The notes below the pieces were generated by a model. It ran no database searches. It was not told the origin of the DNA and saw only the letters and a list, made by a program, of their open reading frames with translations. This document shows, piece after piece, positions 5,559-35,908 of a stretch of 64,000 nucleotides of DNA. The first letter of the stretch is position 1. Every line of letters begins with the position of its first letter. This stretch comes from Geoglobus acetivorans (GTDB taxonomy: Archaea; Halobacteriota; Archaeoglobi; Archaeoglobales; Archaeoglobaceae): positions 310,001-374,000 of the forward strand of contig NZ_CP087714.1 in NCBI RefSeq assembly GCF_039641995.1. The letters are read 5' to 3'. The translations under genes were made by a program, and so were the position numbers.

Positions 5559-6932
5559 ATGAGGGGCAGATATCTGGTAATCCTGCTGGTTGTGCTGGCA
5601 GTTGTTTTTGCAGGGTGCAGCCAGCAGGAAGAAAAGACCGCGCCCACTCCAACCCCAACACCCGAAAAAACTCCAACGCCCGTACCAACTCCCGATATTG
5701 AAAAAATCAAGCAGAAAGCCGTGGAGGATGCAGTCCACGAACTGATGGTCTCCGCGCTGAACCTGCACTACGACAATCCGAACACTCCCGAGGTAGAGGG
5801 CGTCAACGTGAACCCCGAATTTGGTTGTTCGGGATGTCACTTCTCGAAAGAGGCAGTTCCAAGGATGGAGGAGTGGGGACGCTCTGCCCATGGAGGGCAT
5901 GTGCTTGAGGTGAAAGAGGAGGACGTCACCAAGGCCGTAACCGAAGAGGACGCTCCCGCATGGGTCCACTACGATTTCAAGCAGCCCAACAGGCAGCCCT
6001 GTCAGAAGTGCCACACCTCAACGGGCTTCAGGAACTTTGTGAGCGATCCGGAGAATTACAACCCTGAGAACAACACATTCCTGCTGACGGGTCAGCAGAA
6101 GGAATTCCTGTACTGCTGGGCCTGCCACAAGGTTGAGGACGGAAGCTTTGAGCTGAGAAACCCGGGCAGGTTCGCGAGGGTTGCAGAGTATTCAGAGCCC
6201 GCGGACAGGATTTCAGCGGTGCCGGACCTCGGCGAATCCAATCTGTGCATGGTGTGCCATTCGGGAAGGAGCAGTGGGGCAGCAATAAAATCTGCTGAAG
6301 AGATCAAGGGCAAGCACTTTGGAGCCTTCAACTCCCATTATCTGGCTGCGGGAGGCATAATCTTCAGAACTCTGCCTTACGAGTTTGAGGGAAGGGACTA
6401 CGTTTCATCCAACCCGCACGCAAGTATAGAAGGCCTCTGCACCGCATGCCACATGAGCAATGCAGACCACACATTTGAGGCCGTTGAGGTCAAAAACGGG
6501 GCTGTGGTGGATATTAAGGCGTATGACACGCTCTGCAAGAAATGCCACGGAGATGACAAGAATGCCCTGATATCGACGATAAACGAGAGGAAGTCCCAGT
6601 ACGAATCTGCGTTGAAGACGATTGAAAAGCTTCTGGCGGAGAAGGGCATCTACTACGACGGTGAGAGGTATCCGTACTTCTACGGCACACCCAATGCTGA
6701 GGAGCACACATTTGCCAACGCATTCAAGGACTGGCCGAGCAAGGACATTCTTGGAGCTGCGTACAACCTCAACCTGCTCGCTCGTGAACCCGGAGCATTC
6801 GTACACAACCCGGAGTATGTGAAGCAGATCATCTACGATACGATAGACTTCCTCGACGATGGCGTGCTGAACAAATCGGCAGAGAAAAGCGTTCCAGAGG
6901 ATGTGAAGGCCTTTATCCAGGGGGCAAGATAA
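5559..6932 (+). CDS. Hexahaem c-type cytochrome lipoprotein
   Basis: A 457-residue exported protein. It starts MRGRYLVILL with a hydrophobic signal segment and a lipobox-like VFAGC (Cys about 19), then a Thr/Pro-rich spacer (about 28-47) that would lift the haem domain off the membrane. Six CXXCH motifs follow: CSGCH, CQKCH, CWACH, CMVCH, CTACH and CKKCH. The last 110 residues have none. The ATG at 5559 follows GGTGAT, better than the ATG at 5550. Transcribed away from the octahaem gene, so the two are probably regulated together and may form an electron-transfer chain. Exact partner unknown. Confidence 0.88.
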   Translation: MRGRYLVILLVVLAVVFAGCSQQEEKTAPTPTPTPEKTPTPVPTPDIEKIKQKAVEDAVHELMVSALNLHYDNPNTPEVEGVNVNPEFGCSGCHFSKEAVPRMEEWGRSAHGGHVLEVKEEDVTKAVTEEDAPAWVHYDFKQPNRQPCQKCHTSTGFRNFVSDPENYNPENNTFLLTGQQKEFLYCWACHKVEDGSFELRNPGRFARVAEYSEPADRISAVPDLGESNLCMVCHSGRSSGAAIKSAEEIKGKHFGAFNSHYLAAGGIIFRTLPYEFEGRDYVSSNPHASIEGLCTACHMSNADHTFEAVEVKNGAVVDIKAYDTLCKKCHGDDKNALISTINERKSQYESALKTIEKLLAEKGIYYDGERYPYFYGTPNAEEHTFANAFKDWPSKDILGAAYNLNLLAREPGAFVHNPEYVKQIIYDTIDFLDDGVLNKSAEKSVPEDVKAFIQGAR

Positions 6933-32633: not shown

Positions 32634-32823
32634 ATGTCCACCTCTGCCGGTTCACGTTTTCGGGCGGTAGGCCAGGTATGCTCATGCGAGGTACGTTCTG
32701 TACCTTGTGCATAGCGGTTGTGCATGAAACAATACATCAAACGCAAAACTTAAAAACATTCTGGATAAATTGTTAACAGCCATCGGGCTTTTCTTCGAAA
32801 AATCCAGAAAGAAGGAGATGTTT
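32634..32823. other. Gene-free gap after cbiD with strong hairpins; psmB promoter
   Basis: No protein is apparent. A strong hairpin spans 32684-32712: outer ATGC/GCAT, inner AGGTAC (32689-32694) and GTACCT (32700-32705) with a 5-base loop. A weaker stem CCTCTGCC/GGCCAGG lies at 32641-32676. A TATA-like CTTAAAAAC at about 32748-32756 probably serves psmB. The hairpins could be a 3'-UTR structure of the cobalamin transcript or a small RNA. Confidence 0.4.
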
Positions 32824-33471
32824 ATGATGCCAGAAATGTTACAGGATAAGGTGTATAAAGGAACGACAACCGTAGGGATAGTGTGCCGTGACGGCGTTGT
32901 AATGGCGACAGAGAAAAGGGCAACAATGGGCCACTTCATCGCCAGTAAGAGGGCCAGAAAAATCTACCAGGTCTCTGACAGGGTTGCGATGACAACGGCA
33001 GGAAGTGTGGGTGATGCACAGTTCCTGGCGAGGCTTATCAAGGTCGAGATGAACCTGTATGAGGCACAGAAAGAAAAAAGACCTACGGTTAAGGCGATAG
33101 CCACCATGACGTCCAATCTCCTCAACTCAACAAGATATTTCCCGTATCTTGTACAGCTGCTCATTGGAGGCGTGGATGAAACTGGTGCGAGTGTATTTTC
33201 CATAGACCCTATTGGGGGAGCCATTGAGGAGACGGACATAGTTGCAACAGGTTCAGGCTCTCCAATGGCGTATGGCGTTCTGGAAGATGCCTACACAGAG
33301 GGTCTGACGGTGGATGAGGCAGTTGAGCTTGCAGTGAGGGCAATAAACTCAGCGATGAAAAGGGACTCTGCAAGCGGGGATGGAATAGATGTTGTAAAGA
33401 TAACTCCGGAAATGTATTATGAGCTTAAGAAAGAGGAAGTTGAGCAGATCCTCTCAAAATTCAGAAAATAA
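32824..33471 (+). CDS. psmB: Proteasome beta subunit
   Basis: Catalytic subunit of the archaeal 20S proteasome. The 215-residue precursor has a short propeptide ending KG, and the active-site Thr is the first T of [10 protein letters not shown] (about residue 14) after autocleavage. Other conserved parts are [10 protein letters not shown] (with the catalytic Lys), [14 protein letters not shown] and [22 protein letters not shown] sits 7 bases before the ATG at 32824; ATGs at 32818 and 32827 are alternatives. Confidence 0.95.
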
Positions 33472-33496: not shown

Positions 33497-35408
33497 ATGT
33501 CAAGCAAGGAATACATCAGGCAGTTAAAGGAGAAAATCAGGGAGCTGGTCCCGGAAAGTGTGAGAATAAAAAACATTGAGTTTGAGGGCCCGCTCCTTGT
33601 AATTTACGTGGACAATCTTCAGGAGTTTGCTGAAGCTGGAGATGTTGTAAGGAGACTTGCAAAAGACCTAAGGAAGAGAATTATCGTAAGACCTGATCCA
33701 AAGAACCTCAGGCCTCCGGAAGAAGCGAAAGAAATCATCAGGCAAATAGTTCCCGATGAGGCTCAGATTACAGGATTTTTTCTTTGATGAAGAGAATGGT
33801 GAAGTCATAATTGAGGCAGAAAAACCCGGAATTGTAATTGGAAAGAATGGTGTTACGCTCAGAGAGATAATGAAGGCTGTTGGATGGAGCCCCAAAGCCG
33901 TGAGGACAGCTCCTCTTAAATCAAAGACCATAGAAAACGTCAGGGAGTTTCTGATAAACGTAAAAGATGAAAGGAAGGAGATTCTCAAAAGAATCGGAGA
34001 AAGGATTCACAGGGGGACAATTTATGAGGACAGGTGGGTCAGGGTAACATTTCTTGGCGGCTCGAGGGAGGTTGGGAGGAGCTGCTACCTTCTGCAAACT
34101 CCTGAAAGCAAGGTGCTCATAGATTGCGGGGTCAATGTTGGGAATGTTCACCAGTCTCCTTACTTCTACGTCCCCGAAATTCAGCCCCTCGACAGTATTG
34201 ATGCGGTTGTCATAACTCACGCTCATCTTGACCACTGCGGTCTGCTACCCATCCTCTTCAAATACGGTTACAGGGGACCGGTTTATCTCACACCACCAAC
34301 CAGAGACCTTATGGTTCTCCTTCAGCTTGACTTTATAGAGGTTGCAGCGAGAGAGGGAAATCCAACTCCGTATGAGTCTCAGCATGTCAGGGAGGCTTTG
34401 AAGCACACGATACCGCTGGACTACGGAGTTGTTACGGACATAACCCCTGATATAAGGCTCACGTTCTACAATGCAGGTCACATTCTCGGCTCTGCGATAG
34501 CACACTTCCATGTGGGGGAGGGCCTGTACAATATCGCCTTTACCGGCGACTTCAAGTTTGAGAAAACAAGGCTGTTCGACAGGGCATTCACGAACTTTCC
34601 GAGAATTGAAGGCCTCATAATGGAGGCGACGTATGGTGGAGCAGAGGATTTCCAGCCTTCGAGAAAGGAGGCTGAGGAAAAGCTGATAGAGGTCATAAAG
34701 AGAACGATTGAGCGTGGGGGAAAGGTGCTCATTCCGACTTTTGCGGTGGGAAGAAGCCAGGAGGTCATGATAGTCCTCGAGGAGGCAATAAGGAACGAGG
34801 TGCTTGAGCCTGTGCCAGTGTATCTCGATGGGATGATCTATGAGGCAACGGCCATACACACGGCCTATCCCGAATACCTCAACTCACACCTGAGGGACCT
34901 TATTTTCCACCAGGGCATTAATCCGTTCATAAGTGAGAGCTTTGTCAGGGTGGACTCTCCGGGCAAGAGACAGGAGGTTATAGAGAGCTCCGAACCATCT
35001 GTGATTCTTGCCACCTCCGGTATGCTCAACGGTGGGCCGGTTATGGAGTACTTCAAGGCCTTCGCTCCGGACGAAAGGAACACGATAGTCTTCGTCGGTT
35101 ATCAGGCTGAAGGGACGCTTGGCAGGAGGATTCAGAAAGGGTGGAAGGAGGTGCCGTTACCGTCTTCCGGGGGTAAGAGGGATGTTGTAACCATAAACAT
35201 GGAAGTCGAGACCGTTGACGGGTTTTCGGGTCATTCTGACAGAAAACAGCTTTTGAATTACGTGAGAGCGCTGAAACAGAAACCTGAGAAGGTTATAACG
35301 ATTCACGGTGATGAAAACAAATGCATAGAACTTGCCTCGGCAATCTACAAGACCTACAGAGTTGAAACGAGAGCTCCGCTGAATCTGGAGACGGTGCGAT
35401 TCCTATGA
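33497..35408 (+). pseudogene. aCPSF1/FttA-type beta-CASP ribonuclease, interrupted by a +1 frameshift
   Basis: Archaeal CPSF1-type (FttA) nuclease for mRNA 3'-end formation and transcription termination. The first frame (33497-33787) encodes the N-terminal KH-like domain (MSSKEYIRQLKEKIRELVPE) and stops at TGA 33785. The second frame (up to 35408) holds the second KH domain ([21 protein letters not shown]), the metallo-beta-lactamase motif HAHLDHCG and the beta-CASP part with [16 protein letters not shown] and FSGHSD. Joined by a +1 shift, the product is about 637 residues, the family length. The second frame could also start alone at ATG 33756. Recoding at CTT TGA, coupled two-part translation or a T-run sequence error are all possible; because the family is nearly universal in archaea, a dead gene is unlikely. 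Confidence 0.85.
33776..33787 (+). other. Candidate +1 frameshift site
   Basis: T6 followed by CTT TGA. Read in frame the TGA ends the first segment; a +1 slip of CTT to TTT continues as GAT GAA GAG into the long frame. CTT TGA is the same slip pair used in bacterial prfB. AGGA at 33772-33775 lies 6 bases before CTT, further than the 3 bases in prfB. Confidence 0.5.
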
Positions 35409-35908
35409 CGAGGCTGATAAGCTTTGTTGGCACCTCAAACAGCGGTAAAACTACACTTCTCACGAAAATCATTCCGAAGCTCAGGGAAAAGGGGCTGAGG
35501 GTCGCGGTTGTAAAGCACCATGCACACGGTGATTTTGAGATTGACAGGGAAGGCAAGGATTCCTGGAAGCTTTACAGCAGCGGTGCAGATGTTGTAGTCT
35601 CGTCTCCCGTAAAAATGGCCTTCATAAGAAGAGCTGAAAATGACAGCCTCGACTGGATTTTCGATAGGTATCTGAACGGGGATTACGACCTCGTTCTTAC
35701 TGAGGGGTTCAGCAGGGCAGGAAAAGACAGAATTGTTGTGGTAAACCATCCTGAGGAAATTGGCAGGTTCACTCATGGAAGGATTCTTGCCGTGGTTTGC
35801 GATGCTGATGTTGAGGGGTTTCCGGCCTTTAAGAAAGACGATGTTGACGGAATAGTCAGATTCATTCTGGAGCTTGTCGGAAATGAGGGTCGCTGTATTC
35901 AGACCTGA
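35405..35908 (+). CDS. mobB: Molybdopterin-guanine dinucleotide biosynthesis protein MobB
   Basis: GTP-binding helper in making guanylylated molybdenum/tungsten cofactor. The 167-residue protein has the P-loop [15 protein letters not shown] (6-20), [15 protein letters not shown] with conserved His residues, [13 protein letters not shown] and [13 protein letters not shown], matching MobB. It overlaps the preceding nuclease gene by 4 nt and hemD by 26 nt. No other molybdopterin gene is in the window. Confidence 0.9.

Follow-up and report, generated by a model that had tools for sequence, protein, structure and literature searches.

The window analysed here is a 64,000-base stretch of a Geoglobus genome (bases 310001–374000 of one 1,903,522-base contig, G000:C1); positions are those of the window unless a genome or contig is named. 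Between a proteasome beta subunit-like ORF (32770–33471) and a mobB-type GTP-binding protein-like ORF (35405–35908), both named from sequence only, lie two ORFs in different frames, with the following features.

33497–33787, forward strand: ORF1, 96 aa, N-terminal part of aCPSF1/FttA (KH 1 and the start of KH 2)
33756–35408, forward strand: ORF2, 550 aa, remaining part of aCPSF1/FttA (rest of KH 2, MBL, beta-CASP, RMMBL)
33776–33781, forward strand: run of six T (five T in the nearest species, G001)
33782–33787, forward strand: CTT TGA, the last sense codon (33782–33784) and stop codon (33785–33787) of ORF1
33785–33790, forward strand: double stop TGA TGA, which is GAT GAA read out of frame

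The frame junction reads GGA TTT TTT CTT TGA TGA, and ORF1 ends in ...ITGFFL followed by the two stops. ORF1 matches positions 2–87 of TIGR03675, the aCPSF1 profile (E 2.2e-28), and also KH_TffA, the KH domain of FttA (E 2.7e-28). ORF2 matches positions 85–630 of the 631 of TIGR03675 (E 2.2e-274); the MBL, beta-CASP and RMMBL domains were all found in it by profile search, and the HAHLDH metal motif is readable in its translation. Read together, the two ORFs constitute one full-length aCPSF1, a +1 step giving the frame and the length of the family. A first-pass annotation of this DNA had described an aCPSF1/FttA gene lying in two frames, with T6 and CTT TGA at 33776–33787; the identity is borne out by the ORFs and the profile matches, the coordinates are exact, and the claim that a +1 slip restores the family frame and length agrees with the two consecutive matches to TIGR03675. 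All domains of known aCPSF1/FttA proteins (TIGR03675; PDB 2xr1, 2ycb, 3af5, 9bct) are present over both frames, in the same order and at full family length; the difference is the one-base split, found in the G000 assembly only.

The continuous chain of about 636 residues is absent from the G000 record, where it is split at 33785, and present in the nearest species; the split is a property of the record and not of the ancestry of the gene. G000 has no second full-length copy. The next best match is a KH-less beta-CASP paralogue (G000:C1:413581–414774), which aligns over the nuclease part only, with 41% identity. Almost all archaea require aCPSF1 to terminate transcription. Of the genomes found to contain it, 95.4% have a single copy (PMC8653824), and it is essential in M. 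maripaludis (PMC7515710).

The frame break in related genomes

The window and G001 are 92.3% identical over 3,994 aligned bases, and the only gap in this alignment is the difference between T5 in G001 and T6 in the window. A comparison of the site across relatives had been proposed in the first-pass annotation. It was made with 109 fetched loci, one of which begins downstream of the site; in all of the remaining 108, some of which are the same contig obtained via two collections, the frame is open across the site, and the break recurs in none. Among the matches listed for 59 other genomes, the full-length orthologues each occupy one open frame (contig ends interrupt the gene in one of these assemblies, and only a fragment or paralogue is seen in two). 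A search for the FttA KH domain in 296 genomes of the phylum gave about 160 matches among those listed, the window's own row not being one of them, and every frame was at least 634 aa long. At the same site 24 intact loci have runs of six to eight T; the length of the run there is hence not coupled to a broken frame. The break is private to the G000 assembly.

A split protein from ATG 33756 was among the options of the first-pass annotation; the organism would then produce a KH fragment and a nuclease initiated at this ATG, working as a pair. The ATG overlaps the upstream ORF, and the 550-residue nuclease keeps the catalytic domains. Against this, the break at residues 94–96 cuts the KH_2 match (85–128, intact orthologue numbering), which would leave the domain divided between two chains, and no Shine–Dalgarno sequence precedes ATG 33756. 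Furthermore, the solved homologues are single chains spanning the break point, and the split form is found in no other genome among the matches listed. We consider a split protein very unlikely.

Selection on the gene

Comparison of the window with G001 gave dS of ∼0.38 and dN of ∼0.004, both before and after the break, with protein identity of 98–99% to the nearest species. When five further genomes of the genus were used to polarize the substitutions, 39 could be assigned to the window lineage since its split from the nearest species (4 before and 35 after the break), and all 39 were synonymous, with none nonsynonymous. This indicates strict selection on the ancestral single frame until the present, or almost so. 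aCPSF1 was thus a single functional frame up to the very recent past, if it is not one still. The pattern fits an error, and equally a mutation of very recent date or a break that is efficiently corrected; it does not fit an old inactivation.

A genuine inactivating mutation, compensated by the KH-less beta-CASP paralogue, was also considered. The paralogue is indeed present, but relatives with a whole aCPSF1 possess it too, aCPSF1 has been found essential in M. maripaludis, and relaxed selection is not seen. Such an inactivation is extremely unlikely.

The CTT TGA hexamer and the search for recoding signals

The junction carries CTT TGA, the slip pair known from bacterial prfB, and the first-pass annotation gave weight to recoding. 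The hexamer is present at the junction as claimed; nevertheless, 23 of the 108 intact loci also contain CTTTGA, out of frame. In intact relatives the Phe-Asp pair is encoded by TTT GAT or TTT GAC, preceded by a codon ending in C, so the hexamer arises because it falls within Phe-Phe-Asp codons. Insertion of one base upstream automatically converts this coding CTTTGA into CTT TGA. CTTTGA is thus a by-product of coding and not a selected slip signal. In the part of G000 that was sampled, CTT TGA is also the end of eight conserved ORFs, and in-phase TTT TTT C occurs at twelve sites in other conserved ORFs, all of them unbroken. The 15-mer TTTTTTCTTTGATGA occurs once in G000 and was absent from the six relatives searched.

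No stimulatory RNA fold was detected downstream of the break, where the RNA forms a poorer fold than shuffled versions of it do (z = +2.1), and an Rfam search returned no match. Upstream of CTT no properly spaced Shine–Dalgarno-like element was found; the sole such stretch is an AGGA that ends 6 nt before CTT and lies inside conserved Thr-Gly codons. Comparison of the related loci revealed no conserved slip motif at the break. A scan of tRNA genes in the sampled half of G000 listed nothing unusual, and the genome may still contain a frameshift-suppressor tRNA; a plasmid search gave no match. With six T, the run also falls short of the Tn n>8 given for transcriptional realignment (PMC3711429).

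These results can be set against programmed, selected +1 recoding that would regulate aCPSF1 in the manner of bacterial prfB. Both have CTT TGA at the junction and a +1 direction, and autoregulation of a termination factor such as aCPSF1 is conceivable. In prfB a Shine–Dalgarno-type element lies 3 nt from the slip site and the motif is CTT TGA C; in G000 CTT TGA is followed by T, a well-spaced element is lacking and the break is not conserved. aCPSF1 is not a release factor, and the regulatory logic of prfB would be inapplicable because, to our knowledge, RF2 is missing from archaea. With every related locus intact, no stimulator and one ancestral frame under selection, the earlier emphasis on recoding is not sustained, and we give programmed recoding hardly any credence.

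Other frame breaks and assembly quality

Frame breaks were surveyed in 984 kb of G000 (52%) compared with 1.77 Mb of G001, after removal of intergenic, start-region and antisense artefacts. The 984 kb of G000 contained two clear in-gene breaks, each a one-base insertion: that in aCPSF1 and one in a PLD-domain protein near 852260. The latter, at G000:C1:852260 and hence outside the window, is 457 aa long in the nearest species. Apparent breaks at G000 positions 312175, 403636 and 648665 were set aside, being artefacts of intergenic sequence or of antisense ORFs.

At least three in-gene breaks remained in G001, in genes named by their sequence as cytochrome-like, oxaloacetate decarboxylase-like and PIN-like. 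The multihaem cytochrome-like ORF is whole at window position 6439 (G000:C1:316439) and frame-broken at G001:C1:1508812, where a 2-base CT repeat has been gained. The oxaloacetate decarboxylase beta-subunit-like gene (G000:C1:562306–563433) and the PIN-like gene (G000:C1:1087011–1087436) are whole in G000, and each has a one-base break in the nearest species. Two similar transposase-like ORFs of G000 (G000:C1:268728–269384 and 1054293–1054910) both match a single counterpart near G001:C1:936722, which is frame-broken.

An assembly of poor overall quality is not supported as an explanation, hundreds of A/T runs of at least six standing in intact frames. The G000 assembly is good, and one or two residual errors per megabase would be enough to explain the break. 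In a clean assembly with one other break in 984 kb, a lone error is unremarkable.

Discussion

We have shown that the window's aCPSF1 gene carries a base that is extra in comparison with all relatives and private to this assembly, and that one frame is strictly conserved on both sides of it. A private one-base indel with the ancestral frame intact on either side is what a sequencing or assembly error would leave. Errors are blind to essentiality, while a real break in aCPSF1 would be strongly selected against. That both in-gene breaks in the surveyed 984 kb are one-base insertions also counts towards an artefact. Frame breaks that occur singly and have good full-length homologues are expected to be sequencing errors (Antonov et al., PMC3711429); the present case resembles these in being confined to a single genome, with full-length homologues elsewhere and a one-base indel at a short run, and no difference from them is apparent. 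Two considerations count against an artefact: the good quality of the assembly, with its two in-gene breaks in 984 kb and its hundreds of in-frame A/T runs, and the length of the run, five or six T being short for a homopolymer error. On balance we judge, with a probability of roughly three in four, that the sixth T is an artefact and the aCPSF1 gene an ordinary one, and we infer that the base is missing from the real chromosome. The living organism would then carry an ordinary uninterrupted aCPSF1/FttA, the sixth T at 33776–33781 being an error of reading or assembly. No recoding would take place, and the product would be a single chain as usual, about 636 residues long, with two KH domains, metallo-beta-lactamase and beta-CASP, which would cleave nascent RNA and end transcription.

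Ranking second after an artefact, though unlikely, is a real and very recent insertion, in the strain or in culture, tolerated because some ribosomes slip by chance into the +1 frame. T6-C-TTT permits re-pairing in that frame: a Phe-tRNA on the second TTT could slip to TTC and then read TTT, which would give exactly the ancestral F-F-F-D. Alternatively, a Leu-tRNA could move from CTT to TTT, or RNA polymerase slippage on U6 could yield some normal mRNA. The few errors elsewhere in the assembly and the lack of any relaxed selection would also suit a recent insertion, and there is archaeal precedent in fucA1 (alpha-L-fucosidase) of S. solfataricus, which is split by one extra base with respect to full-length relatives and rescued by −1 frameshifting (PMC8211752). 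That break is likewise private to a strain group and arises from a one-base homopolymer difference; it differs in its −1 direction, its A run, its experimental proof and the non-essential nature of the enzyme. Slippage in the window would reduce an essential protein to a small fraction of its normal amount. The in-phase TTT TTT C of twelve conserved genes and the CTT TGA ends of eight are associated with no break, and T6 is under the length quoted for transcriptional realignment. That the sixth T is real and the only aCPSF1 is made by +1 ribosomal slippage, on TTT TTT C or CTT TGA, is in our view distinctly improbable.

The first-pass annotation was right in naming the gene, in placing the break and in giving a +1 shift, and a homopolymer error was among its options; its stress on recoding is not supported. 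No confirmed cellular case of +1 frameshifting in archaea appears in a 2021 review (PMC8211752). Should the sixth T be an error, the practical lesson is that CTT TGA at a frame break is weak evidence for recoding in cases where the codons of the intact gene already contain the hexamer. Should it be real, production of an essential archaeal termination factor would hinge on +1 slippage, and we know of no earlier demonstration of a cellular +1 frameshift in archaea.
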